DNA of 34,156 bases. It comes from Rhodopseudomonas faecalis. GTDB lineage: Bacteria; Pseudomonadota; Alphaproteobacteria; Rhizobiales; Xanthobacteraceae. The notes beneath the pieces were generated by a model. The model was not told the DNA's origin. It searched no databases and saw only the letters and a program-made list of their open reading frames with translations. The stretch is from contig NZ_QJTI01000020.1 of NCBI RefSeq assembly GCF_003217325.1, positions 1 to 34,156 of the forward strand. The letters run 5' to 3'. Below are positions 17,355-34,074 of the stretch, piece after piece. Each line of letters starts with the position of its first letter. Within the stretch, counting starts at the first letter, position 1. Both the position numbers and the translations under genes were made by a program.

Positions 17355-19346
17355 ATGATCGCGATGTTGTCCAGGTTCAGTGCTTTTTCGCGGGCGGCGC
17401 TCGTCCTCGGCCTTGCCGGTGCGGCCGCCAGCCCTGGCGCCGCGCAGCCGGTGGCGACCCCGGTCCAAGCCGCCAGCCCCGGCAGCGGCCTGCAAATCCA
17501 GTGGGAAGTCCGCAACCGCTTTCGGCTGTTCCGCGAGGAACGCGACTTCCTGCTGCATGCCGAGGCGCTGCGCAGCGCCACCGTGCTGGCGTCGGAACAG
17601 GCCCTTGGCGTGCAGAGCGACGGCCGCGGCTGGGCCCGCAATGTGGTGGGCCGGCTGTGCATCGACCCGACCGGCCGGGTCAACGAGCCCTGCACCCGCG
17701 ACAACGTCAAGGAAAGCTATCTGACGCCGACCGAGCATCCGGTCACGGTGCGGCTCACCGGCGCGATTCCGGTCGGCGCCACCTGCGCCTGGTCGTTCGA
17801 CGACGGCGAAGGACCGCCGCGCAGCTCGACGCTCGATTGCGCCGAGCCGATCAATCTGCGCGTCCATTATGGCGGACCGACCCAGGTCGCGGTCGAGGTC
17901 AGCAGCGGCGCCGATCCGGCGCTGCGCGTCACCGAGACCATCGAGGTGCGCGACATCTTCATCGCCGGGCTCGGCGACTCGATCGCCTCCGGCGAAGGCA
18001 ATCCCGACAAGCCGATCGCGCTCAGCGACGAAGGCTTCTGCTTCCGTTCCTATCTCGGCGGCGTGCAGGGCCAGTACTACCGGCCGAGCCGTGCCGGCTA
18101 TAAAGGCGGCCGCGCCTGCGAAGCGCCGGAGACGCTGCAAGTCTGGCAGCGCCAGAGCGCGCAATGGCTGAACCCGGCCTGCCACCGCTCGCTGTATTCC
18201 TACCAGACCCGCACCGCGCTGGCGCTGGCGGCACGCTTCCCGCACCTCGCGGTCACCTATCTGCCGCTGGCCTGCACCGGCGCCACCATCAGCGAAGGGC
18301 TGTTCGGCTCGCAGCGCGCGCGCGAATGCGTGATCACCAAGTCGGGCGCAAAATGCGAGGGCAACGTCAACGCCCAGCTCGCCGAACTGCGCGAGGCGCT
18401 GAGCGCGGCCAAGCGCCGGCAGCCGAACCGCACGCTCGATCTGGTGCTGCTGTCGGTCGGCGCCAACGACATCAACTTCTCCGGCATGGTCGCCGATGTG
18501 ATCGTCGACAACGCCACCGAACGCACGCTGTTCAAGCGCTCCGGCGTGATCGCCTCGCTCGACGATTCCCGCGCGGCGCTGCAACGCGAGCTGCCGCAGG
18601 GCTTTGCCAGACTGCGCGAAGCCTTGAAGCCGCTGCTCGGCGGCGACCTGTCGCGCGTGGTCTATACCGCCTATGGCAATCCGGCGCTGGCCGGCGGCGC
18701 GCCCTGCCCGGGCGGCCCGGCCGGTTTCGACATCCATCCGGCGTTCAATGCCGATCCCGCGCGCCTCGCCCGCGTGGTCGATTTCGTGCAGAGCGAGTTT
18801 CTGCCGCAGCTCAAGAACCTCGCGCAATGCAGCGGCGGCGTGCTGTGCCGCGATCCGGTCGCCGATCGCATGACCTTTGTCGATCGCCATCAGAGCGCGT
18901 TCGCGCAGCACGGTTTCTGCGCGCGCAGCGCCAATGATCCGGAATTCGACCGGCAGTGTTTTTCGCCGCGCGGCGACAGTTTTGATCCCGACATCGTCTC
19001 GGCCGCCTCGCAGCCGATGGCGTGCGGCATAGGCGCCAGCAATTATCGGCCCTATCTGCCGCGCGCGCGCTGGGTGCGCGACGCCAATGACAGTTACTTC
19101 TCGGCGATGACCTATCCGCAGGGCCTGCCATCGTCGCAGCAGCCGACCGATATTCACGACGCCACCTGGGGCGTGCTGTCGGCGGTCTATGGCGGCGCGG
19201 TGCATCCCTCGGCCGAGGGCCACGCCGCGATGGCCGACGCCGCATTGCCAGCGGCGGCCAGCGTACTCGGCCTGCAATCGGGTGGCCCGGAAGTGGTGCA
19301 GGAACCGCTGCCGCCGCCGACCATGGTGCCGGGCTCAGCGAACTGA
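17355..19346 (+). CDS. Secreted SGNH/GDSL-family hydrolase
   Basis: Large exported esterase/lipase-like protein of 663 residues. An N-terminal signal peptide (hydrophobic AALVLGLAGAAASPGAAQ, cleavage near residue 30) precedes a beta-rich domain (about 45-200) that may bind carbohydrate or lipid. The SGNH hydrolase core follows: block I GLGDSIASGEG with the nucleophile Ser (about residue 207), block III VGANDINFSG (about 371), and block V VHPSAEGH with the catalytic His (about 619). Many cysteines (FCFRSY, RACEAP, PACHRS, RECVI) suggest disulfides in the periplasm. AAGGCGGG lies just before the first ATG. It follows the YbhN-like gene by 52 bases, so a joint role in envelope lipid or glycan handling is possible but unproven. 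The substrate is unknown. Confidence 0.85.
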   Translation: MIAMLSRFSAFSRAALVLGLAGAAASPGAAQPVATPVQAASPGSGLQIQWEVRNRFRLFREERDFLLHAEALRSATVLASEQALGVQSDGRGWARNVVGRLCIDPTGRVNEPCTRDNVKESYLTPTEHPVTVRLTGAIPVGATCAWSFDDGEGPPRSSTLDCAEPINLRVHYGGPTQVAVEVSSGADPALRVTETIEVRDIFIAGLGDSIASGEGNPDKPIALSDEGFCFRSYLGGVQGQYYRPSRAGYKGGRACEAPETLQVWQRQSAQWLNPACHRSLYSYQTRTALALAARFPHLAVTYLPLACTGATISEGLFGSQRARECVITKSGAKCEGNVNAQLAELREALSAAKRRQPNRTLDLVLLSVGANDINFSGMVADVIVDNATERTLFKRSGVIASLDDSRAALQRELPQGFARLREALKPLLGGDLSRVVYTAYGNPALAGGAPCPGGPAGFDIHPAFNADPARLARVVDFVQSEFLPQLKNLAQCSGGVLCRDPVADRMTFVDRHQSAFAQHGFCARSANDPEFDRQCFSPRGDSFDPDIVSAASQPMACGIGASNYRPYLPRARWVRDANDSYFSAMTYPQGLPSSQQPTDIHDATWGVLSAVYGGAVHPSAEGHAAMADAALPAAASVLGLQSGGPEVVQEPLPPPTMVPGSAN

Positions 19347-19390
19347 CCGCGCTGCGCGCGGCCTGGCCTTCGCCTCCTCACCAATGACCC

Positions 19391-19480
19391 GTCATGCCCG
19401 CGCTTGTCGCGGGTATCCACGTCTTGAAAGCGCCGCTGGATCAAAGACGTAGATGGCCGGGACGCGGCCCGGCCATGACG
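19391..19480. repeat. Palindromic intergenic repeat (REP-like), about 90 bp
   Basis: Bounded by GTCATG and CATGAC, with an inner ACGTCTT/AAGACGT pair and GC-rich arms (CCCGCGCTTGTCGCGGG and GGCCGGGACGCGGCCCGGCC). The layout matches a repeat family common between genes of Bradyrhizobium and Rhodopseudomonas. It lies between the convergent SGNH and DUF2147 genes. A second copy of similar length and outline sits inside the restriction enzyme gene at 21103-21190. Confidence 0.8.
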
Positions 19481-19525
19481 TACGGAATGGTTGGTATCAA
19501 TCGCCGTTGGTAATAACAGCCTCTC

Positions 19526-19587
19526 AAAACAGATCAGCCAAAAACAGATCAGCCCTGGCCGCGCAAAACAGCCAGAGCTGATCTGTT
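19526..19587. repeat. Direct and inverted copies of an AACAGATCAGC motif; hairpin between convergent genes
   Basis: AAAACAGATCAGCC occurs at 19526-19539 and again at 19541-19554, and the inverted GCTGATCTGTT at 19577-19587. The second copy and the inverted copy form an 11-bp stem, extended by CTGGC/GCCAG around the loop. It lies just after the DUF2147 stop and may end transcription on the minus strand, though no T-run follows. Confidence 0.6.
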
Positions 19588-19614
19588 GAGGGCTCCGCCC
19601 GTGGGCGGCGGCGC

Positions 19615-20250
19615 TCAGCGCGCCGGAGCCGGAGCGGGCGTCGGCGCCGGGGCCGCAGGCTTGGGCGGCTTGGCCGCGGCCGGCGCGGCGCCGGGCTTGG
19701 CGGGCGCCGGCGCAGCAGCCGGGGTCGGCGGCGGATATTTGGCGGCGATCACCGGATCGAGCTGGGCATAGGCGGTGTCCGGCAGCCGCTGCCAGGTCTC
19801 GTCCTGGCCGAGCATCGGCGTCATCAGATAGCCGCGCAGCGTCAACGCCTGGCCATCCGGGCTGACCTTCATCTGCGCGCTCCAGATGTCGCCATTGCGC
19901 GGGTCGAGAATGTTGCCGCCGATATATTCCAGCCCCTTCCGCTTCATGTCGCGGATCAGCGAAATGCCGAGCACCGGCTGGCCCTTACGATCATCCTCGC
20001 ATTCGTCGCAGACCAGATTGGGGTCCGATCCCGGCTGCGGGAACGTTTTGGCGACCACGCCCTCAAACAGGCCATTGCCACGATCGAGCATCAGCACCCA
20101 GACCACTGGCTTGCCATTGTCGCTGCGTTGCCACAGGCCCGCAGCGGTGACATCGGCGGCCCAGGACGGCCCGCCGCCCGCCAGCATTGCGATTGCCAAG
20201 GCGGTCACCGCGAGACCGCGCTGAAGCTTCTTTCCTACCATTCGCATCAT
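19615..20250 (-). CDS. Exported DUF2147 protein with Ala/Pro-rich tail
   Basis: Periplasmic protein of about 211 residues. A signal peptide (GLAVTALAIAMLAGGGPSWA, cleavage near residue 31) is followed by a DUF2147 domain. That domain contains GLWQRSDNGKPVVWVLMLDRGNGLFEGVVAKTF, the CDEC cysteine pair and GLEYIGGNILDPRNGDIWSAQM, the typical order for the family. DUF2147 proteins are small lipocalin-like exported proteins of unknown function. The last 45 residues are almost purely Ala, Pro and Lys, an unusual low-complexity tail that might contact the wall. The start is uncertain: GTG at 20253 and ATGs at 20250 and 20247 are in frame, with only a weak GAGAG upstream. Confidence 0.82.
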   Translation of the reverse strand: MMRMVGKKLQRGLAVTALAIAMLAGGGPSWAADVTAAGLWQRSDNGKPVVWVLMLDRGNGLFEGVVAKTFPQPGSDPNLVCDECEDDRKGQPVLGISLIRDMKRKGLEYIGGNILDPRNGDIWSAQMKVSPDGQALTLRGYLMTPMLGQDETWQRLPDTAYAQLDPVIAAKYPPPTPAAAPAPAKPGAAPAAAKPPKPAAPAPTPAPAPAR

Positions 20251-20253
20251 CAC

Positions 20254-20535
20254 CGGATTCTCTCGGTTGGTGGCTATCTATCGGTTGGATAATTCATCTT
20301 ATCATACGCCGCGGGTGGCAATTTGATGATCGATGCATGCAACCAGAAGCTTATGACTAAAATGCAATCGCGCTTTGCGAGAATTTGGTCAACCAATCCG
20401 TCTCTGGGCGCGAATGCGATGCCACAGCATGCGCGCTTCGCCGCCGTTGCGCGTTGTCCGAGCGCAACTGGGTTCCCGCAGAATCTAAGTCAAGAAAGGC
20501 CGCTGCAGCGATCGCTGCGCCGGCTATAGGCTATA
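20254..20535. other. Intergenic region between DUF2147 and the restriction gene
   Basis: AT-richer than its surroundings in places and presumably holding the DUF2147 promoter. TCGGTTGG occurs as a direct repeat at 20263-20270 and 20281-20288, 18 bases apart. The short plus-strand frame here has no ribosome site and no family resemblance. No terminator hairpin was recognised after the restriction gene. Confidence 0.4.
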
Positions 20536-23500
20536 TTATGCCACCTTGCGCAGCATGAAGCTGATGCCGTCTGGCGAGCTGACGTAACCGAGCCGCGCCA
20601 GCGAGGCGAGCACGTCGGCCACCTTCTTCTCAGTGGTCTTGGTGCGCTTGAACTGTGCCGCGAGGCCCTTGGCATCGATCGGCCCCGAGGCAGCCGCGAG
20701 CGCCGCAAACACCGCCGCGGTCTGCTCGACTGCACTCGCCGGGAACGACGGCTTCTGTTGTTTTTCGCCAAGGTCGAGGCTGGCTGCGATCTGCGCCCCC
20801 TCCTCGGCCACCGCCTGCTTGTCGACGCCCTTGGCAAAACGCGGAATCTGGTAGTCGGGCCGCAGCCAGCGCACCAGCCCGCGCTTTTCTTCAGCGGCGC
20901 GCTCTTTGTTGAGCGCCACCAGCCGCGCCAAAATCTCATCGTCAGTAAGGTCCGCTGGCCAGCCATAGGCTTCGGCCACCGCGACATCGAGCCGGTCGTG
21001 CAACTCCTTGAGGATCAGCACGAGGCCATCGTCGAAAATGCGCTGCTCGTCCGGCGTCAGTACATTGCTCTGCTCGTCATTGACCGTCGAACTTCTCCTC
21101 CCGTCATGGCCGGGCTCGTCCCGGCCATCCACGCCTTTCTTGCGGGCGCGCACCGAAGACGTGGATCCCCGGGACGAGCCCGGGGATGACGGCTGTGCCT
21201 GCGGCACGGCTCCCGCCTTGATCCGCTCCAGCACATTGTACAGCCCGGTCAGCGTCAGATGCGGATGCTCCGCCAGCACGCGCTTGCGATGCGCATCGAG
21301 CTCTTCGGCGCTGACGCGAATCGTCTGCTTCTGAATGTTGTTGGCGTCGGGAAAGGGAAAGGGATCGAAACACTGAGACTTAGTGTATCGTGGCCGATCC
21401 TCGAGCGTTCCACCTTGCGCCAGCGTCCAAGTCACATGGAGCCGGGAGGACAAGACCCCGAGATGAAACGCATCATCCGACCCGATGGCAACAAGCATGT
21501 TGTCGGGCAGAATTGATGCATCGAGAAATTGAAAGACGCGATGCTTGGTGGTCTCAACCGTAGCGATGTAGCGACGAAGATCAACCAGTGCAGGTCTAAG
21601 GTCCTTGCGAGGCTCACCAAAAACCCACCAGTTCAGGCGATAGCTGTCCCGGTTGTTGGCGTCGCGTTCAGGCTTAACTGTCGTGGCGAGGTGCTGATAG
21701 ACTTCTGGGAATCTGCTCTTCACCTCTTCGGCTTCGAGCCCAAATAGATCGATCACCATCACGTTGCGCGATCGGCTCGTTAAATCCCGACCATTGCGAT
21801 AGTCCCTGATATGAGCGTTGAGCCCCTCTCGCCGCTCCAATCCAAGGTGAACAGCCTCCTCTCTAGAGATAATGAAGCCCGAGCCGTGCAACTTCACTCC
21901 AGGAGAGCAAACGCCTTCATTTGCTCCAAGCTCTCCGGCTGCAGTCACATCGACACCGATCGTAAGGTCTGAATTAATCAGCCCCAACCGCCCTTCGAAC
22001 TCAATCTCCGGAGTATCAGTATCGAGCTTGGCCTCTGCTACGGTCTCTTGTAGCAGTCCGTCATGTTTCCCCGTGACGGCCACGGTCATGGCGATCCGCA
22101 CCGCCGCTGCATCCGGCGTCGCCTTGGTCCATGGGTGATCGGGGATCGCCATGATCAACGAGATCGGTTTCTTTGCCTTGAGATACTTCTCCATTACCCG
22201 GCGCTGAAACACCTGTGAGATCGAATTGGTGGTCACCAGACCAAAGCGGCGCAGCACTGTGCCCTTGCGCGTGAGGAGTTCGGCAGCGCGATCCCACCAA
22301 TACATCACGAAATCGGCGGACTCGTTCATGTGCTTGTGCGCGGCCCACAACTCTTCCGCATACGGAATACGGCTGCGAACATCCTTGCCGCCAATGAATG
22401 GCGGATTGCCGACGATGAACTCCGCCGCCGGCCATTCCGGCCGGCGCGGGTTCGGATAGGTCTCCTTGCCGCCCTCGATCTTCGGCAGCGGCGCGCCGTC
22501 CCATGTCAGGACCGCGTTCTTGACCTGAATGTTCTTGAACGCTTTCAAGATCGGCTCGTCGGGCGCGCCGCCCTTGGTGCGGAAGTGCCATTGCAGATAA
22601 CCGATCCACAGCACCAGCTCTGCGATTGCCGCCGCGCGCGGATTGATCTCCATGCCCAGGAACTGATGCGGATCGATCGAGTGCGAGCCGAGGCCGCGTA
22701 GCGCTTCCTGGCCGCCGAGATCGAGCAGAGCTTCCAGCACCTCGCCTTCCAGCCGCTTCATCAGCTCGAGCGAAACATAGAGGAAGTTGCCGGTGCCGCA
22801 GGCGGGATCGAGCACCCGCGTCTGGCACAGCTGATCGTGGAATTTCTGCACCGCATCAGCCGCCCCCTTGAGGTCGCCGGCGGCGCGCAGCGTTTCGGCG
22901 GTGGCCTGCACGTTGCGCCAGTCCTCGCGCAAGGGCTCGATGATGGTGGCGATCACCAGCCGTTCGACATAGGCGCGCGGCGTGTAGTGCGCCCCGAGCC
23001 GCTTGCGCTCGGTCGGATCGAGTGCCTGTTCCAGCAGCGTGCCGAAGATCGAAGGATCGACCTCCTTCCAGTCATAGCCCGCAGCCTCGCGCAGCTCGCC
23101 GATTTCTTCGCGGCCGAGCGGTAACGCAGCGCGATTCTTAAAGAACTCGCCGTTGAAACGCTTGACCTTGGTTTTCAGCGCATGCGCCCACTGGCCAAGG
23201 TCCATCGCCTCCCAGAGCTGGCCGACATCGTGCACGAAAGCTTCAGGATTGTTCTCGCACTCTTCCAGCAGATTCTTGAACGCGTTCTCCGGCAGCAGTT
23301 CGACATCCTCAGCGAACATCGTAAACAGGCAACGCATCAGGAACATCGCGACGTCGTCGGCGACAAAACCCTGTTTCTCCAGCGCGAGCGAGACGTGCGC
23401 TAGCCGCCGCGCAATGTCGCGCGTTACCTTGGCCGAAGCCTGTGCCGGATCGAGCGCCTGCGGATCGAGCCAAATTTTCTGCAACCGCTCGCGCACGTCG

Positions 23501-24072
23501 TCGTTGCGCAAGTCTTCGAGATAGATGCGGAAACTCTGCCGATCCGGAAACTGGGTGTAGTTTTTGCCCTGGCCCGTGAAGTCGGCATAGACCTCGATGC
23601 AATGGCCGACGTCGCACACCAGAATGAACGGCGGCCAGCCATGCGAGGCCGGCAGCGCGCGGGCGTATTCCTCGGCCTGGCGCTTGGCGTTCAGCATCAG
23701 CACGTCCCAGGCGCGATCGGCGCCGCGCCGCCCGCGGCTGCCCTCGGCCGCACTGGCGAACAGCTCCGACTGGCCGGCGACCTTCTTGAGGCCCTTGAGC
23801 CGGCTCTGCTTGGCTTCCAGGACGAAGCAGCTTTTTTTGTAGAGATCGATGCGGCCGTAAGAGGCGCCGTCGGTGCTGCTTTTCTTCACCACGCGCTCGA
23901 ACACATAGTCGTTGTGCTCGTGGGTGGCGTCGGCGGGATCAGGCTTCGGCAGCCCCAGCAGCGCGATCAGCTCCGTGAGAAACGAAACGTAATTGGCGCG
24001 CTCCTGACCGCCCTCGCGGTCTTGCCAGCGCGCAATAAATTCTTCAACGGCCGAAACGTCCTGGTCCCCCAT
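20536..24072 (-). CDS. MmeI-like type IIL restriction-modification enzyme (nuclease and methyltransferase in one chain)
   Basis: Single polypeptide of 1,178 residues that should both cut DNA and methylate one strand of its site. The N-terminal nuclease has a D-X9-E-X-K motif (Asp76, Glu86, Lys88), the MmeI pattern. A helical spacer (about 130-400) leads to the methyltransferase with motif I LDPACGTGNFLY (about 420) and motif IV GNPPFIGGKD (about 553), typical of N6-adenine methylation. The target-recognition part (about 680-920) ends with SSRLHVTWTLAQGGTLEDRPRYTK and DPFPFPD. It is longer than MmeI (about 919 residues): residues about 961-990 come from an inserted palindromic repeat, followed by a helical extension that may end in a winged helix. 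No separate specificity or methylase gene is nearby, as expected for this type. Target sequence unknown. Confidence 0.9.
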   Translation of the reverse strand: MGDQDVSAVEEFIARWQDREGGQERANYVSFLTELIALLGLPKPDPADATHEHNDYVFERVVKKSSTDGASYGRIDLYKKSCFVLEAKQSRLKGLKKVAGQSELFASAAEGSRGRRGADRAWDVLMLNAKRQAEEYARALPASHGWPPFILVCDVGHCIEVYADFTGQGKNYTQFPDRQSFRIYLEDLRNDDVRERLQKIWLDPQALDPAQASAKVTRDIARRLAHVSLALEKQGFVADDVAMFLMRCLFTMFAEDVELLPENAFKNLLEECENNPEAFVHDVGQLWEAMDLGQWAHALKTKVKRFNGEFFKNRAALPLGREEIGELREAAGYDWKEVDPSIFGTLLEQALDPTERKRLGAHYTPRAYVERLVIATIIEPLREDWRNVQATAETLRAAGDLKGAADAVQKFHDQLCQTRVLDPACGTGNFLYVSLELMKRLEGEVLEALLDLGGQEALRGLGSHSIDPHQFLGMEINPRAAAIAELVLWIGYLQWHFRTKGGAPDEPILKAFKNIQVKNAVLTWDGAPLPKIEGGKETYPNPRRPEWPAAEFIVGNPPFIGGKDVRSRIPYAEELWAAHKHMNESADFVMYWWDRAAELLTRKGTVLRRFGLVTTNSISQVFQRRVMEKYLKAKKPISLIMAIPDHPWTKATPDAAAVRIAMTVAVTGKHDGLLQETVAEAKLDTDTPEIEFEGRLGLINSDLTIGVDVTAAGELGANEGVCSPGVKLHGSGFIISREEAVHLGLERREGLNAHIRDYRNGRDLTSRSRNVMVIDLFGLEAEEVKSRFPEVYQHLATTVKPERDANNRDSYRLNWWVFGEPRKDLRPALVDLRRYIATVETTKHRVFQFLDASILPDNMLVAIGSDDAFHLGVLSSRLHVTWTLAQGGTLEDRPRYTKSQCFDPFPFPDANNIQKQTIRVSAEELDAHRKRVLAEHPHLTLTGLYNVLERIKAGAVPQAQPSSPGSSRGSTSSVRARKKGVDGRDEPGHDGRRSSTVNDEQSNVLTPDEQRIFDDGLVLILKELHDRLDVAVAEAYGWPADLTDDEILARLVALNKERAAEEKRGLVRWLRPDYQIPRFAKGVDKQAVAEEGAQIAASLDLGEKQQKPSFPASAVEQTAAVFAALAAASGPIDAKGLAAQFKRTKTTEKKVADVLASLARLGYVSSPDGISFMLRKVA
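21103..21190. repeat. Palindromic REP-like repeat inside the restriction enzyme coding sequence
   Basis: Bounded by GTCAT...ATGAC like the intergenic copy at 19391-19480, and of nearly the same length (88 against 90 bases). It has GGCCGGGCTCGTCCCGGCC and CCCCGGGACGAGCCCGGGG arms. Read on the minus strand it is translated without a stop as SSPGSSRGSTSSVRARKKG and onwards. The peptide is Ser/Arg/Gly-rich and unlike the rest of the protein. Confidence 0.85.
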
Positions 24073-24220
24073 GCGTGCAACCTAGCGGGGAGTTTTGCTG
24101 TCGTCCACATCCGAACGGACAGTTCCTGACACACCGAGGCACCCTCTTTGGTCGAGAGGCGGCAGGCGTTGCGAGAAGCGATGGGCTGACGCGCATCCGG
24201 CAATCCCGCTTTCAAGACGC

Positions 24221-24255
24221 AAAAAGCCCGGCGATGCGGGGCATCGTCGGGCTTT
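24221..24255 (-). terminator. Intrinsic terminator after the ferredoxin-NADP reductase gene
   Basis: Stem of 15 positions (AAAGCCCGgCGATGC / GCATCGtCGGGCTTT) with a 3-base loop. On the minus strand it is followed by a run of T (complement of the A-run at 24221-24225). It lies about 40 bases after the reductase stop, in the right orientation. Confidence 0.9.
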
Positions 24256-24294
24256 GAATGATCGAAGCGGATGACGCTTAGCAGCAGATGGCGC

Positions 24295-25949
<1,655 letters not shown>

Positions 25950-25968
25950 CGCCGACCGCATCAAAAAC

Positions 25969-25999
25969 GCCAATGGCCGGGACAAGCCCAGCCATTGGC
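25969..25999. terminator. Hairpin between convergent thioesterase and ferredoxin genes
   Basis: GCCAATGGC / GCCATTGGC stem of 9 bp around a 13-base loop, beginning about 20 bases after the thioesterase stop and followed by AAAATC on the plus strand. The ATGGCCGGGAC wording resembles half of the REP-like repeats elsewhere in the window, so it may be a decayed repeat reused as a terminator. Confidence 0.6.
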
Positions 26000-26117
26000 A
26001 AAATCACTGGCAGCAGCGCGCGGCAGCTGCCGCCGCGTTCTGGTCGTCAGGCGAGCCAAGCCAAGCCATCCGGCAGGACGGCTTTGGCGCGGCTCACAGC
26101 GACAAGATCGGCCCTTG

Positions 26118-26438
26118 TTAGGCCTGACGCTCGGGGACGGTGACCACCAGGCCGTCCAGCTCCTCGGTGACCTTGATCTGGCACGACAGCCGCGAATTCG
26201 GGCGCACGTCGAAGCCGAAATCCAGCATGTCTTCTTCCATCGGGGTCGGCGAGCCGGTCTTTTCGCGCCAGGCGTCGTCGACATAGACGTGGCAGGTCGC
26301 GCAGGCGCAGGCGCCGCCGCATTCAGCCTCGATGCCCGGCACCGCGTTGCGGATGGCCGCCTCCATCACCGTGGCGCCCTCCTCGACCTCGACGGTGCGG
26401 GTTTCTCCGGTGTGATCGACAAAGTTGATCTTGGCCAT
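26118..26438 (-). CDS. [2Fe-2S] ferredoxin, putidaredoxin/adrenodoxin type
   Basis: Soluble electron carrier of 106 residues. Cluster ligands follow the C-X5-C-X2-C...C pattern of this class: Cys40, Cys46, Cys49 and Cys86, with one extra cysteine at 44. Flanking sequence ([22 protein letters not shown] and [20 protein letters not shown]) is typical of ferredoxins that serve P450 enzymes or iron-sulfur assembly. It resembles palustrisredoxin B of R. palustris as I remember it. No iron-sulfur-assembly genes are adjacent, so a P450 or general redox role is as likely as an assembly role. The nearby ferredoxin-NADP reductase could be its electron source. The ATG at 26436-26438 has only a weak ribosome site. 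Confidence 0.92.
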
Positions 26439-26564
26439 GATTGCTCGTGTGCTGATAACAAAAGGGGGAAATGTTTCGGGCTGTCCTATAACGGCTCGTT
26501 CCCGGTTTCGCCAGGGTGCGGGATCAAATCTGAACCGCTATCGCGTTTTCCCACCGCCGCGACG

Positions 26565-27450: not shown

Positions 27451-30400
27451 ATGGCCAACAATCCCAAGAAAGCCAAAGATCCCACCGAAGTTGCGCTGTC
27501 TGCGATTCAGGAAGCCCTGAACATCGACACGCCGCCAGCTTCGGGCGAGACCAGCCCTGCCCGGGCTGACGCTGCCGCATCCAAAACAACGACGTCGCCG
27601 GGAGACCTTGCGGCCGAGCCGCGGGTGGTTCCCGAGCGCGCCAGCTTCGACAAGCTGGCCGAACAGTCGCTGTCGGGGCGCCCGGCCAATGATGATCGCG
27701 AGACCATCGGCCAGCTGCTCCAGACGATTCAGAGAAGCCGCCCCACCCGCAATGTCTACGCTCTCGCCGGCATCTTCGCCGGCGTCTGGCTGCTTGGCGC
27801 CGGCCTGCTCACCGCCAGCTTCTTGCCCTCGCTGCAGGCCGCCATGGGCCAGAGCGGCGGCGTGCTGGTGCTCGCCGGCCTTGCGGCGTTGTTCTTCGCG
27901 CCGGTGATGCTGTTCTTCTTCCTCGCCCATCTCGCCTGGCGCGGCCAGGAGCTGCGCATGATCGCGCAATCGATGGCGCAGGTCGCGGTGCGGTTCTCCG
28001 AACCGGAAGGCGTCGCCAGCGAGTCCGTGGTCACCGTGGGGCAGGCGATCCGCCGCGAAGTCGCGGCGATGGGCGATGGCATCGAACGCGCGATCGCGCG
28101 CGCCAGCGAACTGGAAGCGCTGGTCGCCAACGAAGTGTCGGCGCTGGAACGCGCCTATTCCGACAACGAAGTGCGCATCCGCGCGCTGCTGCAGGACATC
28201 GCCCATCAGCGCGATAATCTGGTCGGCCAGGCCGAACAGGTGCGCAGCGCCATTTCCGGCGTGCAGATCGATCTGCGCCATGACATCGCGCTGATTTCCG
28301 ACGCGATCGCCTCGCGCGTTGACGAAGTCGCCAAGAGCATCACCAGCGCCCTGGAAGAACGCGGCGCGCACATCACCAATGCGCTCAGCTCAGCCGGCGA
28401 CCATATGATCCTGACGCTCGGCGAGCGCGGCGGCGACCTGCTCGACCGCTTCGAGGAGGCCAGCGCCGAAACCACGCGCGCGGTGCTCGACGCCAGCGAG
28501 CGGCTGACCACCAGCCTGAATTTCAAGACCGGCCACGTGCACGACGAATTCGTCGACCTCGCCGATCGCGTCCACGAGATGCTGAACCAGCGCATCGAGC
28601 GCATCACCAGCGAGTTCGAGCAGAAGGCCGCCGTCATTGTGGAAGGCATCTCCGAACGCGCCGAGCAGGTGCATGACGCGCTCAAGAATTCGGGCGACTC
28701 GCTGCTGGTCGAACTCGACCTGCGCAGCACCGACCTTGCCAGCAAGATCGACGACGCCGGCAACCGCCTCGCCACCCAGGTGCTGACCAGCGGCGACAAG
28801 GCCAGCGAAGCGCTGGATGTCACCGTCAACACCCTGGTCGCCAAGGTGATCAGCCAGACCGAAAACACCCACGACACGCTCAGCGTGCAGATGAGCGCGT
28901 TCGACGAGCTGGTGCGCAACAAGGGCACCGAGCTGGCCGAGAAATTCGCGCGTGACAGCGGCACGCTCGGCGCGCTGATCACCCGTCACATCAGCGAATT
29001 CGATCACACCGTGAAGACCTATGGCGGCGAGATCGTCGAGCGCATGGGCCAGCGCAGCCAGGAAATCTCCGACGCGCTCAAGACCTATGTCGACAGCTTC
29101 GACAGCAAGATCTCGACCACCGGCACCGGCATCACCGCCACGCTCGACTCGCGCCTCGCCGAGTTCGAGTCGATGATCGACACCCGCGTCAGCAATCTCG
29201 ACAATTCGCTGGAAGGCAGGCTGAGCAGCTTCGACGCCATGATCGGCGGCCATATGGGCGCGCTCGACCAGACCTTCGATCTGCGTGCCAAGTCGGTGAT
29301 CGAAACCATCGACACCCGCATCGACAGCCTCGCCTCGACGCTGTCGGACGGCGCCGCCCAGGCGATCGACTCGATCGACTCGCGCCTCAGCCATCTGACC
29401 CAGTCGCTGACCGAGAACGCCACCAATGCCACCCAGGCGATCGATGCCCGCCTCGGCCGTCTGACGCTGTCTTTGACCGAAGGCGCCGCCAACGCCACCC
29501 AGGCGATCGACGCCCGCCTCACCGAGCTGACCAACACCCTCACCGATGGTGCGGTCAGCGCCACCGAGGCGATCGACTCGCGGCTGCATCACCTCACCAG
29601 CACGCTCACCGATGGCGCCGCCCGTGCCACCGGCGAAATCGACGCGCGGCTGCATGAGCTGGCGCTCACCCTGACCGACGGCGCCGCCAAGGCAACCGAG
29701 GACATCGATATTCGCCTGCAGCGTCTGACCTCGACGCTGACCGAGGGCGCCGCCAACGCTACCGACGATATCGATGCGCGCCTGCAGCGTCTGAACGCGA
29801 CCCTCACCGAGGGCGCCGCCAACGTCACCGACGATATCGATACCCGCCTGCAGCGCCTGACCTCGACCTTCACCGAGGGCGCCACCACCGCCACCCAGGA
29901 GATCGACACCCGGCTGCGTCAGCTCACCGTCACCCTGTCCGAAGGCGCCGCCAGCGCCACCGGCGAAATCGATCAGCGGCTGCGCCAGCTCACGGTCACC
30001 GTCACCGACGGTGCCGCCAGCGCGACCCAGCAGATCGACAACCGCCTCACCCACCTCGCCGCCACGCTGGCCGATCGTGCCACCCGCGCCACCGAGACCA
30101 TCGACGGCCGCCTCGGCGACCTGACCATGGCCCTGACCGACAGCGCCACCCAGGCGGTGCAGTCGCTCGACACCCGTCTGGCGCACTTCACCCAGTCGCT
30201 GACCGAAGGCACCGTGCAGGCGATCGCGGCGATCGACAATCGCATCGCCCACGTCACCGAGACCATCGACGGCCGCACGCTGCATCTCGAGCACACCGTC
30301 ACCGCAAGGTTCCAGGAGATCCACGAGGGGCTCGAGGTCCGCGTCGGCGCGGTGGCCAACGAGATCGACACCCGCGTGTCGCAGTTCGAAGACCTGCTCG

Positions 30401-33400
30401 GCTCGCGCATCGAAGCCGTGGCCGGCCGTATCGAAAACAGCGGCCGCCACGCCAGCGACAGCCTAATGGCGCGCGCCGAAGAACTGTCGATCGGCATCCG
30501 TTCGCACGTCGAGGACGCCGAGCGCTCGCTGACCCACCTCGTGGTCAACACCAGCGAAACCATCCAGACCGGCGCCCGCGCCGCGCAGGAAGCGCTGCTG
30601 TCGGTCTCGACCGAAGTCGGCGCCCAGCTGAAGCTGACCTCGAACGAAATCGAGAGCGGCCTGACCGCGGTCGGCATCAACGCCGCCGAGTCGCTGGTGG
30701 CCCGCGCTCGCGAGGCGCAGTCCAACCTGATCAACGCCTCGAGCGACGCCACGCTGCAGATCAAGGAGCTGGCCGAGGAAGTGGAACGCACGCTGTCGGC
30801 TGCCGGCAGCTCGACCGCCACCGCCCTGCTCGCCGGTGCCCGCGAGGCCCAGACCACGCTGGTCTCGACCTCGACTGACGTCGCCAGCCAGATGCGCACC
30901 CTGTCGGCTGATATCGAACGGACGCTGTTTGCGGCCGGCTCGACCACCTCCGACGCCGTGCTGTCCGGCGCCCGCGCCGCGCAGACCGTGCTGGTGGAAG
31001 CCTCCAGCGAAGCCGCCAGCCAGGTGCGTTCGCTCACCACCGATGTCGAGCGGACCCTGTCGAGCGCCGGCGCCAACACCGCCGAAGCGATCCTCAACAG
31101 CGCCCGCGATGCGCAGAGCCGTCTGGTGAGCGTGGCCACCGACGTCTCGACCCAGGTCAAGTCGATGTCGGGCGATGTCGAGCGCACGCTGACCGCGGTC
31201 GGCACCTCGACCGCCGCGGCGATCCTCGCCGGTGCCCGCGAAGCGCAGAGCACGCTGGTCAGCGCGTCGTCGGAAGCCGCGACCCAGGTCAAGAGCCTGA
31301 CCGAAGACGTCGAGCGCACCATCACGGCGGCGGGCCGCAACACGGCCGACACCATCGTGAGCGGCGCGCGCGAAGCCCAGGCCAGCCTGAGCTCGACTTC
31401 GGAAGAAGCCGCCAATCAGGTGCGCACCACCGCGCTCGAAGTCGAACGCACGCTCACCAAGGTGGGCGCGGACACCGCGGCCGCGCTGCTCGACAACGCC
31501 CGCGAAGCCCATGCCAGCCTGGCCACGACTTCGGAAGAAGCCGCCGGTCATGTGCGCTCGGCCGCGCTCGATATCGAGCGCACGCTGATCAAGGTCAGCA
31601 CCGACACCGCGACCTCGCTGCTCGACAGCGCCCGCGAAGTGCAGGGCACGCTGGTGACGGTGAGCAGCGATGCCGCCAGCCACATGCGGTCGATTTCGGC
31701 CGACATCGAGAAGTCGCTGACCACCGTGACGGCCAACACCGCCGACACCATCCAGAGCAGCGCCGCCAACGCCCAGAACACGTTGGTTGCGGTCTCGAAC
31801 GAGGTGGCGGCCAAGATGAAGACCACCTCGGCCGAGATCGAGCGGTCGGTGTTCGCCGCCAGCGGCAGCTTCGGCACCACCATGACGAGCAAGACCGACG
31901 AGATCGTCAGCTACGTGCAGCAGCAGACCGATCGTCTGTCGCAGATGATCGACGGCAAGCGCGGCCTGCTGGTCGATGCGATCGGCGGCAAGGCCAATCA
32001 GCTCACCGTTGATATCGACCGCGTGACCGCTGATGCGCTCAAGGCGATCGAGACCCGCGGCAAGGCGTTCTCGCACACCATCGTCACCAACAGCACCGAC
32101 GTCGCCCGCACCATCACCGGCGCCGGCGAGCTGGCAACCAATGCGGTCAACAAGTCGATCAAGGACCTCGAACTGGCCTCGCGTTCGGCGATCGAGCAGT
32201 CGCGCCAGGTGTCGATCGCGGCCGTGACCGAGATGCAGGAAACCAGCAAGATCCTGCGCACCGACACCGTCGCGCTGTTCGAACGGCTGCGCGAAGGCAA
32301 CATCCTGCTGCAGGAAGTGCTGACCGGCGCCCACGAGAACCTGAACTCGCTGGAGCGTGCGCTGGTGACCCGCGTCGCCGACTTCGTCACCACCATGAAC
32401 GACGTCAACTCGCGCAACGGCGTGGCGACCCAGGCTCTGGAAGATCAGCTCACCGTGTTCAACGGCAAGACCGCCAAGGCTCTGGAAGACCTCGGCGCGC
32501 TGTCGACCCAGTTCGCTGCCCACGGCCAGGCTCTCGAGCAGGCCGCGGCGCTGGTCGAGCAGAGCAACCACAGCACCAGCAGCTCGGTGGCGCAGCGCAA
32601 GTCCGAACTGGAATCGCTGGTCACCACCATCGACCTGCGCACCGCCGATCTCGATCAGCGGCTGACCCGGTTCACCAGCCTGCTCGACGAGTCGCTGGCG
32701 GCGGCCGAAGAACGTGCCCGCGACATCGCCCGCATCGTGGCGGAGACCGCCGGCACCGGTTCGAGCACCATCACCCGGCAGTTCGAGACCGTGCGTGAAT
32801 CCGCTGAGGAACAGCGCCGGCTCACCGTGGCCGCGATGAACGAGCTGCAGCAGCAGAGCAGCCGCGAAGTCGAAACGCTGTTCAAGCAATCGACCGACAA
32901 GTTCGCTGCCATGGTCCAGGGCATCAAGAAGATGGCCTCGGAGATGCACGCCGAGTTGGAATCGACCCGCGAAGAACTGCGCCGCGGCGTGCTGGAAATT
33001 CCGCAGGAAACCGCGGAAAGCACCTCGCAGATGCGCAAGGTGATCGTGGATCAGATCGAGGCGCTCGCCGAGCTGAACCGCATCGTCGCCCGCCATGGCC
33101 GTGGTCTCGACGTGTCGACCACCAGCCGCGCCAGCGTGCAGCGTGAAGAAGAGCCGTCGCTGGTGACGGCGGGCGCCGCCCGCCGCGAAGCCCCGGCGCG
33201 CCAGCCGGCCCGGCCGCGTGAAGCGCCGCCGGCCCGTGAACCGGCGATGCGCGACTCGAGCGCCGCAATCCTGCCGCCGCCCGACCTCGGCCTGCCGCCC
33301 AGCCGTCGCACCGAGGCGCCCTCGGTCGCCCCGGAAGCGGACCAGGACCGTGACGGCTGGCTGTCGGATCTGCTGAACCGCGCCGACAACGAACGCGAGG

Positions 33401-33786
33401 CCCCGCGCCCCGCGCCGCGTGCCGCGGCCACCCCGCCCGCCTCCAGCGCCAGCCCGCTTGACTCGCTGACGCTCGACATCGGCCGGCTGCTCGACCGCAA
33501 CCTCGCGGCCGAGATGTGGGATCGCTATCAGCGCGGCGAGGCCAAGGCGTTCTCGAAGCGGCTGTACACCCCGGCCGGCCAGAAGGCTTTTGACGAAGTC
33601 GCCCGCAAGTATCGCAGCGACCGCAGTTTTAAGCAGACCGTCGATCGCTACATCACCGAGTTCGAGCGTCTGCTCGACGAAGTGGCGCGCGATGAACGCG
33701 GTCCGGCGGCGCTGCGCAACCACCTGCTGTCGGAAACCGGGCTGGTGTACACCCTGCTCGCCCACGCTTCGGGCCGGCTCGGCTAA
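27451..33786 (+). CDS. gpr: Growth pole ring protein, GPR/RgsE homologue (giant apolipoprotein-like membrane protein)
   Basis: Protein of 2,111 residues, close to the roughly 2,100-residue GPR of Agrobacterium and RgsE of Sinorhizobium, which form a ring at the growing pole and are needed for polar growth and rod shape. The N terminus is cytosolic and disordered (1-100). Two membrane helices follow at about 102-124 and 137-161. A very long helical region then contains fifteen exact-length 22-residue repeats (620-949) and ten exact-length 44-residue repeats (1023-1462), then more coiled coil (to about 1890). A Pro/Arg-rich linker (about 1900-2000) leads to a compact conserved C-terminal domain (about 2004-2111, DIGRLLDRNLAAEMWDRYQ). 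I chose the ATG at 27451 (MANNPKKAKD, AAGGGCG upstream) over an open frame beginning 126 bases earlier. Identification rests on length, layout and C terminus. Confidence 0.87.
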   Translation: MANNPKKAKDPTEVALSAIQEALNIDTPPASGETSPARADAAASKTTTSPGDLAAEPRVVPERASFDKLAEQSLSGRPANDDRETIGQLLQTIQRSRPTRNVYALAGIFAGVWLLGAGLLTASFLPSLQAAMGQSGGVLVLAGLAALFFAPVMLFFFLAHLAWRGQELRMIAQSMAQVAVRFSEPEGVASESVVTVGQAIRREVAAMGDGIERAIARASELEALVANEVSALERAYSDNEVRIRALLQDIAHQRDNLVGQAEQVRSAISGVQIDLRHDIALISDAIASRVDEVAKSITSALEERGAHITNALSSAGDHMILTLGERGGDLLDRFEEASAETTRAVLDASERLTTSLNFKTGHVHDEFVDLADRVHEMLNQRIERITSEFEQKAAVIVEGISERAEQVHDALKNSGDSLLVELDLRSTDLASKIDDAGNRLATQVLTSGDKASEALDVTVNTLVAKVISQTENTHDTLSVQMSAFDELVRNKGTELAEKFARDSGTLGALITRHISEFDHTVKTYGGEIVERMGQRSQEISDALKTYVDSFDSKISTTGTGITATLDSRLAEFESMIDTRVSNLDNSLEGRLSSFDAMIGGHMGALDQTFDLRAKSVIETIDTRIDSLASTLSDGAAQAIDSIDSRLSHLTQSLTENATNATQAIDARLGRLTLSLTEGAANATQAIDARLTELTNTLTDGAVSATEAIDSRLHHLTSTLTDGAARATGEIDARLHELALTLTDGAAKATEDIDIRLQRLTSTLTEGAANATDDIDARLQRLNATLTEGAANVTDDIDTRLQRLTSTFTEGATTATQEIDTRLRQLTVTLSEGAASATGEIDQRLRQLTVTVTDGAASATQQIDNRLTHLAATLADRATRATETIDGRLGDLTMALTDSATQAVQSLDTRLAHFTQSLTEGTVQAIAAIDNRIAHVTETIDGRTLHLEHTVTARFQEIHEGLEVRVGAVANEIDTRVSQFEDLLGSRIEAVAGRIENSGRHASDSLMARAEELSIGIRSHVEDAERSLTHLVVNTSETIQTGARAAQEALLSVSTEVGAQLKLTSNEIESGLTAVGINAAESLVARAREAQSNLINASSDATLQIKELAEEVERTLSAAGSSTATALLAGAREAQTTLVSTSTDVASQMRTLSADIERTLFAAGSTTSDAVLSGARAAQTVLVEASSEAASQVRSLTTDVERTLSSAGANTAEAILNSARDAQSRLVSVATDVSTQVKSMSGDVERTLTAVGTSTAAAILAGAREAQSTLVSASSEAATQVKSLTEDVERTITAAGRNTADTIVSGAREAQASLSSTSEEAANQVRTTALEVERTLTKVGADTAAALLDNAREAHASLATTSEEAAGHVRSAALDIERTLIKVSTDTATSLLDSAREVQGTLVTVSSDAASHMRSISADIEKSLTTVTANTADTIQSSAANAQNTLVAVSNEVAAKMKTTSAEIERSVFAASGSFGTTMTSKTDEIVSYVQQQTDRLSQMIDGKRGLLVDAIGGKANQLTVDIDRVTADALKAIETRGKAFSHTIVTNSTDVARTITGAGELATNAVNKSIKDLELASRSAIEQSRQVSIAAVTEMQETSKILRTDTVALFERLREGNILLQEVLTGAHENLNSLERALVTRVADFVTTMNDVNSRNGVATQALEDQLTVFNGKTAKALEDLGALSTQFAAHGQALEQAAALVEQSNHSTSSSVAQRKSELESLVTTIDLRTADLDQRLTRFTSLLDESLAAAEERARDIARIVAETAGTGSSTITRQFETVRESAEEQRRLTVAAMNELQQQSSREVETLFKQSTDKFAAMVQGIKKMASEMHAELESTREELRRGVLEIPQETAESTSQMRKVIVDQIEALAELNRIVARHGRGLDVSTTSRASVQREEEPSLVTAGAARREAPARQPARPREAPPAREPAMRDSSAAILPPPDLGLPPSRRTEAPSVAPEADQDRDGWLSDLLNRADNEREAPRPAPRAAATPPASSASPLDSLTLDIGRLLDRNLAAEMWDRYQRGEAKAFSKRLYTPAGQKAFDEVARKYRSDRSFKQTVDRYITEFERLLDEVARDERGPAALRNHLLSETGLVYTLLAHASGRLG
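29308..30297 (+). repeat. Fifteen 66-bp (22-residue) repeats within GPR
   Basis: Each unit reads roughly ID-x-RL-xx-LT-x-(S/T)-LT-(D/E)-GAA-x-AT-xx, exactly 22 residues with no insertions or deletions over residues 620-949. The last unit is degenerate. A 22-residue amphipathic helix period is the hallmark of apolipoprotein A/E-type repeats. Confidence 0.92.
30517..31836 (+). repeat. Ten 132-bp (44-residue) repeats within GPR
   Basis: Each unit reads roughly (V/I)ERTL-xx-(A/V)G-xx-TA-x-(A/L)-(L/I)-x-x-AREAQ-x-x-L-(V/S)-x-x-S-x-(D/E)-(A/V)A-x-x-(V/M)(R/K). Units are exactly 44 residues, twice the 22-residue period, without indels over residues 1023-1462. A partial eleventh unit follows (IERSVFAAS). 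Confidence 0.92.
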
Positions 33787-33793
33787 GCACCGC

Positions 33794-33855
33794 GCCAGGC
33801 ACACGGCAATAGCCAGGCACACAACAGCCAGGCACACAACAGCCAGGCACATAAT
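33794..33855. repeat. 15-bp tandem repeat after GPR
   Basis: AGCCAGGCACACAAC occurs at 33811-33825 and 33826-33840, then AGCCAGGCACATAAT at 33841-33855. A fourth, offset GCCAGGCACAC is at 33794-33804. It begins right after the GPR stop codon and ends at the terminator stem. Confidence 0.85.
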
Positions 33856-33856
33856 C

Positions 33857-33886
33857 AAAGGGCGGGAGCGCAAGCTCCCGCCCTTT
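33857..33886 (+). terminator. Intrinsic terminator of GPR
   Basis: Perfect 12-bp stem (AAAGGGCGGGAG / CTCCCGCCCTTT) with a 6-base loop, ending in TTT and followed by CCTTTT. It lies about 70 bases after the GPR stop, on the right strand. Confidence 0.88.
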
Positions 33887-33914
33887 CCTTTTGGCCGCTC
33901 GCGTTCCCGGACCG

Positions 33915-34074
33915 GCGTTCGGGGACATCGCCGACGGTGTTCGGAGAGATGGCCGACAAGTGTTCGGGGACATGCCGGAGGGTGTTCGGGGACATGCCGG
34001 AGGGTGTTCGGAGACATGGCCGACAGGTGTTCGGGGACATGTCAGACGGATGTTCGGGGACATCACCGACACAT
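33915..34074. repeat. Seven-copy 22/23-bp tandem repeat downstream of GPR
   Basis: GTTCGG(G/A)GA(C/G)AT starts at 33917, 33939, 33962, 33984, 34006, 34029 and 34052, spaced 22 or 23 bases. Copies 3 and 4 are identical over 22 bases; the others differ in the last third (CCGAC, CCGGAGG or CAGACGG). Because unit length alternates, no single frame reads through the repeats as a protein repeat. No spacers are present. Confidence 0.9.

Follow-up and report, generated by a model that had tools for sequence, protein, structure and literature searches.

A head-to-head dimer of CGTC-type REPs read in frame at a linker of an MmeI-like restriction-methylation gene in Rhodopseudomonas faecalis

In a 34,156-nucleotide stretch of the Rhodopseudomonas faecalis genome (contig NZ_QJTI01000020.1; the whole stretch is called the window below), a palindromic element lies within a long open reading frame (ORF) for a restriction enzyme. 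This locus raises the question of whether the element is a genuine repeat that is read as protein and, if so, how it came to be there and what has been kept of it. The features concerned, in window coordinates, are as follows.

20536..24072, minus strand: gene for an MmeI-like single-chain restriction-methylation protein of 1178 aa, in which the insert lies (ORF, Pfam, PADLOC, PDB)
20539..21060, minus strand: C-terminal extension, residues 1005-1178, common to homologues with and without the insert
21061..21099, minus strand: non-repeat linker tail, residues 992-1004, varying among carriers and absent from non-carriers
21100-21192, minus strand: peptide of residues 961-991
21102..21191, minus strand: head-to-head dimer of CGTC-tagged REPs, in frame (sequence, copies, alignment)
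21106..21128, minus strand: second REP hairpin along the gene (9-bp stem, 5-nt loop), ATGGCCGGG-ACGAG-CCCGGCCAT
21129..21164, minus strand: central part, a CCACG...CGTGG stem with a fast-changing loop
21165..21187, minus strand: first REP hairpin along the gene (9-bp stem, 5-nt loop), ATCCCCGGG-CTCGT-CCCGGGGAT
19389..19480, no strand given: intergenic dimer of the same REP family (covariance-model match)

The stretch at 21102-21191 is a true REP dimer read in frame. The element is 90 letters long, belongs to a hairpin repeat scattered mostly outside genes in the R. faecalis genome, and consists of two hairpins, with CGTC at their outer ends, placed head to head round the CCACG...CGTGG stem. 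It coincides with an inverted repeat at 21101-21192 that has 44-nt arms, 82% complementary, with 4 nt between them. The RNA fold of the element on the gene strand has a stability of -72.4 kcal/mol (z -7.56), and none of 200 shuffled sequences was as stable. A chance palindrome is ruled out by the arms of the inverted repeat, the copies in the genome and the shuffle test of the fold. The minus-strand reading contains no stop and gives PSSPGSSRGSTSSVRARKKGVDGRDEPGHDG, residues 961-991 of the 1178-aa ORF; a preliminary description of this DNA had put the stop-free reading at about 30 residues, and the number is 31. The one-base adjustment of frame that was also suggested there is unneeded to explain the sequence. 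A search of window positions 19000-26500 against Rfam gave zero matches at the gathering threshold.

A BLAST search and a covariance model made from 30 of the copies together placed at least 110 separate dimers in the 4.07-Mb genome, a count that leaves out partial matches and single REPs and is a lower bound, because only part of the first-look candidates (150 of 5678 from the covariance model and 40 of 235 from BLAST) was scored. The genome-wide search proposed in the preliminary description has thus yielded many other copies, and the likeness that it saw to an intergenic repeat at 19391-19480 is borne out by the covariance-model match at 19389-19480. Within stretches of about 2 kbp taken on each side of the copies, nine ORFs span a dimer with at least 60 aa before it and at least 40 after it; one is the MmeI-like gene, and the other eight have no Pfam match at E 0.01. 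A count of copies inside open frames, likewise proposed, finds one of the 110 located dimers well within a supported gene; dimers in contact with a gene end are not part of the count. The earlier idea that such repeats enter and persist at domain linkers is supported by the homologues described below, but in-gene dimers are very rare in this genome.

The CGTC tag, the 9-bp stem whose first two pairs are A-T/T-A, the 5-nt loop and the CCA tail are features of CGTC-3 REPs, as are the many copies (110 located), the head-to-head dimers and the mostly extragenic location. Judged from the sequence, the element is probably a CGTC REP of type 3, the family number being given by published features and not by consensus comparison. 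CGTC-3 REP dimers have been reported in Rhodopseudomonas palustris (Di Nocera et al. 2013, PMC3733652), and the main-text parts of that paper describe them with the same CGTC tag, 9-bp stem starting from AT, 5-nt loop, CCA tail and head-to-head arrangement, in many, mostly intergenic copies. According to the same parts, CGTC REPs have no dedicated transposase gene.

Other repeats are also present in the window. A single degenerate REP-like hairpin (AATGGCCGGGACAAGCCCAGCCATT) occupies 25953-25998, just after a plus-strand ORF that ends at 25949. Long in-phase repeats of 66 nt and 132 nt (families D1-D5) extend over 29263-31842 and span the minus-strand ORFs 28390-30450 and 30463-34017, and units of roughly 22-23 bp (GTGTTCGGGGACATG-like; families D9 and D15) follow one another in tandem at 33910-34070, near the window end.

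The protein that hosts the insert matches the Pfam domains MmeI_N, MmeI_hel, MmeI_Mtase and MmeI_TRD, and PADLOC PDLC03627 (type IIG restriction-methyltransferase) covers its residues 8-1173. MmeI-like type IIG/IIL enzymes cleave at a distance and methylate one strand. As in these enzymes, domain searches place a nuclease, a methylase and a recognition domain on a single chain, in the order nuclease, helical, methylase, recognition. D76, E86-A-K88, DPACGTGNF and NPPF, which we take to be catalytic-type motifs, are invariant across ten homologue rows. The host protein differs from MmeI-like enzymes in having a long C-terminal extension past residue 946 of P0001, preceded by the repeat-bearing linker. 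The match to the sole solved relative found, MmeI (PDB 5hr4, E 5.9e-39), ends at this same residue, and the insert lies just past it and ahead of the extension; its earlier placing at the boundary between the MmeI-like part and a C-terminal extension is therefore about right. In the predicted model, residues 961-1002 have pLDDT <50 and stand between higher-confidence helices at 941-952 and 1007-1036, in a structure that is weak overall (mean pLDDT 65.2, pTM 0.37).

Homologue matches were found in six of the 16 genus genomes, the window's own included, and in 42 of the 391 family genomes, those of the genus included; named genomes gave at least 573 matching stretches, of which the best 80 of 573 were used. 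The homologue alignment contains 96 rows, some of them partial, and 1133 core columns; nine duplicate ORFs were removed from the set, and six of 110 loci had no usable ORF. An insert occupies the same site in Rhodopseudomonas sp. BR0M22 (G015, L065), in G008, in G010, where the gene is disrupted near residue 733, and in the metagenome-assembled genomes (MAGs) of Rhodopseudomonas sp. Cfx3-05 (G020, L086) and Pseudorhodoplanes (G152, L066). It is cleanly missing from most other homologues examined, which is the absence of residues about 961-990 that the preliminary description had proposed to look for. Carriers in several genomes rule out a single recent insertion in one strain. Inserts of at least 15 aa occur at residues 956-1005 in nine of the 96 rows and outside this interval in three single rows only (L061, L100 and L140). 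Once new Microvirga rows join, the linker holds an insert in 15 of 104 rows (9/96 plus six of eight new ones).

Some of these loci have peculiarities of their own. In G010 (L035/L037; G010:C1:1952653-1956221) a frame change plus a TAG break the gene in two near residue 733, and the REP stems are intact. In G008 (L033 and L038; G008:C13:114202-114849) a second N-terminal MmeI-like fragment, with 64% identity over query residues 7-227, lies downstream of the full gene. At L086:7894-8013 in G020, the loop of the second hairpin is enlarged by 30 nt, added in frame, which contain a short palindrome of their own (GGCGCTTCGCGCC).

In Microvirga, the genus of G391 (Microvirga sesbaniae, L114), 14 of 48 genomes gave matches. 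Nine of 12 intact ORFs have an insert at the same linker, the three without it being L251, L253 and L254; the broken gene L252 has an insert as well, and L255 (a fragment) and L256 (a distant relative) stand outside this count. At least three kinds of repeat are represented, and two of the inserts are chimeric. The first kind consists of CGTC dimers (L242, L245, L246 and the decayed L243). The second has the reading [VI]PGRSAAEGKGIH...PGMT (L247, L249 and L250), with a related unit, ending PGMT, in tandem after the first in L250. The third, reading SPSSLWG..., is fused to the right half of kind 1 in L244 or of kind 2 in L248; these chimeras have nearly the same left half and different right halves, and their flanking third positions differ at 38 of 90. 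Pieces matching the insert of M. aerilata (L250) number 61 within the M. aerilata genome and 45 in that of L129, and pieces of the L129 insert are themselves multi-copy (23 matches). The G391, G152 and G020 genomes are rich in R1-type dimers: matches to the dimer model, both strands counted, number at least 150, 104 and 70, respectively. The element of L243 has a damaged stem, so that stems are not always kept.

The number of insertion events was considered from trees. Seven rows (L058, L060, L061, L062, L110, L125 and L143) were left out of the first set, in which an 89-row tree built without the linker columns requires four changes of the insert label, all four forced by well-supported branches, and trees from the N- or C-terminal part alone need four, of which three are forced. 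Parsimony is blind to gain versus loss, and mosaic enzymes are possible. When more Microvirga are included, in a tree of 30 rows, insert presence needs seven changes and repeat type ten; in this tree L105 is a wrongly chosen ORF with a branch of 10, which set the root of the drawing. In nine of the ten CGTC elements (P0001, L065, L033, L037, L086, L066, L242, L245 and L246) the CGTC tag starts 31 nt past the same codon, in the same phase, the position in L242, where an earlier CGTCA stands at 19 nt, having been read by eye; in the decayed L243 the tag is 28 nt past the reference codon. Because the CGTC dimers of all three lineages share their start nucleotide, one old event or an exact target is possible, and either would suit this finding as well as chance tolerance does. 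The second Microvirga repeat starts 35 nt past the reference codon in three cases of three, and in a different phase, so that at least the other repeats are separate entries. Given several repeat families at one linker, repeats entered it more than once, and the CGTC dimers of the three lineages may share one old origin.

What has been kept since then can be judged from the four Rhodopseudomonas copies (G000, that of the window, with G015, G008 and G010). None of their 36 stem columns is variable, against 20 of the 54 other columns. The 23 arm codons have a pS of 0.067 in G000, G015 and G008, a value below those of all 1069 same-shape gene windows (median 0.474, minimum 0.104); in a comparison over the C-terminal part that includes G010, none of 324 windows is as low as the arms. 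Fisher tests of synonymous change in the arms versus 120 flanking codons gave p values of 0.0007, 0.0013 and 0.0166 for the pairs with G000, 0.019 and 0.027 for two other pairs and 0.075 for G015-G008; the six pairwise tests are non-independent and draw on four copies, that of G010 belonging to a disrupted gene. When the insert as a whole was compared with the flank in five pairs, its divergence was lower only in G000-G008 (p 0.024). Compared with G000, the centre differs at 10 of 24 nt in G015 and at eight of 24 in G010.

The peptide has no comparable protection. Over the six pairs of these copies, pN is 0.02-0.12 in the arms, 0.02-0.04 in the flanks and 0.12-0.42 in the centre, and differences in the arms over three pairs comprise eight nonsynonymous versus four synonymous ones. 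The dN/dS of the arms is 0.4-2.5 (undefined in one of the six pairs), compared with 0.05-0.09 in the flanks, and that of the centre, which has eight codons, is 0.2-1.1 (again undefined in one pair) and thus not uniformly neutral. Codon-level selection on the peptide is ruled out, since arm pN is not below that of the flanks and centre pN is higher. The carriers share a similar peptide without codon-level protection; the opposite outcome raised in the preliminary description, a peptide conserved at the codon level in all homologues, is not what we found. A structure alignment of nine of the ten in-gene CGTC-dimer elements, leaving out the decayed L243, has both hairpin stems paired in 100% of cells, with three compensated pairs each, and the whole structure 96.8% paired (slid partners, at most 49.5%); if different REP forms were inserted separately, this covariation is uninformative on constraint within the gene. 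From the substitution patterns, we infer that the thing kept is the DNA or RNA hairpin and not the peptide.

The first hairpin gives some indication of where the in-gene copy came from. Its pattern at 21165..21187 is the sole exact copy in the R. faecalis genome, and none of the 109 other dimers there has this left stem; the right-stem sequence, in comparison, is common (60/109). In a search of 13 genomes for exact matches, the left stem (ATCCCCGGG-loop-CCCGGGGAT, or its AC/GT form) was found once each in G000, G015, G020 and G152, always in the MmeI-like gene. Further copies, one in G008 and two in G010, are all of the AC/GT form, and the AT form does not occur outside the gene in these two genomes. 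At least one copy of the left-stem pattern exists in 107 of the 391 family genomes; in a reading of the counts by eye, more than ten copies, up to 59, exist only in genomes of group g23. L065 and L086, each extended by 5 kb of flanking DNA, align with the window over the gene and nowhere else (E 1e-10). Because the gene has different surroundings in these two relatives, the repeat probably travels with it; that is, the gene probably moves between genomes carrying its REP. The simplest reading of these sequences is that resident REPs have not overwritten the in-gene left stem.

We consider it likely that a dispersed CGTC-type REP dimer entered, in frame, the short disordered stretch that joins the MmeI-like body to the C-terminal extension, and persists because this linker tolerates about 30-80 extra residues. 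Insertions elsewhere in genes would mostly be removed by selection, which, with the disorder of the linker, would make it a recurrent site; and the repeat would move between genomes with the gene, which would explain a stem form foreign to the resident repeats. The stems may then be held by a DNA or RNA hairpin constraint and not for the peptide, the candidate constraints being mRNA folding at the domain boundary or binding of a REP-recognising protein. A stronger version, which we regard as rather unlikely, is that the linker is more than permissive: the mobile defence gene would keep a strong hairpin at the domain boundary for a nucleic-acid reason, e.g. slowing of the ribosome between the recognition and C-terminal domains, and lineages would keep or refill the slot with whatever palindromic repeats are available.

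Several other explanations were weighed against the entry of a dimer into a tolerant linker. It is possible, though we doubt it, that one very old CGTC insertion preceded the split of the Rhodopseudomonas, Pseudorhodoplanes and Microvirga gene lineages, with many later losses and, in some Microvirga, replacement by other repeats; the site would then be a relic more than a landing place. Such a history would account for the tag standing 31 nt past the same codon and in the same phase in nine elements, and for the right halves of other elements that L244 and L248 keep behind the third repeat; however, the trees need several changes (four, all forced; seven in the 30-row set), L067, L042 and L078, which are close relatives of carriers, are empty, and the second Microvirga repeat starts at 35 nt in a different phase. 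The shared start nucleotide of the CGTC dimers, at one site in several lineages, would equally follow if a REP-mobilising enzyme preferred the linker DNA and recurrence reflected target choice instead of tolerance, but different repeat families stand at the site in different phases, and we think targeted insertion unlikely. That the long ORF is an illusion of annotation, the element ending one gene and the C-terminal extension being a separate ORF, would suit a repeat found mostly between genes. This is extremely improbable: insert-free homologues are one continuous protein across the site, which rules out two separate genes, and PDLC03627 covers residues 8-1173.

The remaining explanations concern the low divergence of the arms. 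The insert may be inert and simply tolerated, with its arms alike owing to recent transfer or recombination of the segment among strains, an alternative that we think possible but doubtful. It agrees with the probable movement of the gene, with the G000 and G008 inserts, which differ at only 4 of 93 nt, and with the nearly identical left halves of L244 and L248 between flanks that differ at 38/90 third positions. The centre, however, is strongly diverged in G015 and G010 and the 36 stem positions are unchanged, and this disfavours recombination of the whole segment, since stems and centre would then be alike. Repeated overwriting of the in-gene arms by resident REPs, which would keep the arms uniform, appears quite unlikely. 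REPs are abundant, the Microvirga chimeras resemble an exchange between repeat halves, and conversion is possible for the right stem, which 60 of 109 other G000 dimers share; for the left stem it is ruled out, since no other exact copy exists in G000 or G015, none of the 109 other G000 dimers has it, and its AT form is absent outside the gene in G008 and G010.

REP units within genes are known in several species, and flexible linkers have been suggested as neutral REP sites, in the main-text parts of PMC3733652, which also give one case, Xanthomonas recB, of different REPs at about the same site. These parts mention neither a restriction enzyme nor in-gene stem conservation. They give R. conorii the largest count of in-gene CGTC repeats and equate RPE-6 with CGTC-1 and RPE-4 with CGTC-4. 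The Rickettsia RPEs are, like the present element, palindromic repeats inserted and read in frame, and since some of them are other members of the CGTC superfamily, the kinship is closer than the resemblance proposed in the preliminary description; the element is nevertheless not an RPE. In contrast with RPEs, which have many in-gene copies and, according to PMC6649704 (with reference to Claverie and Ogata 2003), lose their identity as repeats over time, only one gene and one linker are concerned here, with stems kept, and insertion in many unrelated genes was not found (one of 110 located dimers). The coding palindromes of Nematomorpha mitochondria, as presented in parts of PMC6649704, are also inverted repeats kept in coding sequence, but they are not dispersed REPs and belong to unrelated organisms and genes. 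Within the parts of the literature compared on in-gene palindromes, same-site insertions, RPE insertion sites and MmeI-like insertions, we found no single linker with several repeat families across genera and with stems kept while the peptide drifts; the nearest work is that of Di Nocera et al. (2013), as compared through parts of its main text.

In-gene REPs were known before, mostly as scattered, perhaps neutral insertions. Here, one linker of one family of defence enzymes holds several repeat families in different lineages and is a recurring home for mobile DNA. With its empty sites, REPs, other repeats and chimeras, this natural series is suited to the study of how mobile DNA is turned into protein and of whether a hairpin within a gene is retained for its own sake. 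A further suggestion is that a gene moving horizontally can bring a REP form to genomes in which that form is missing.
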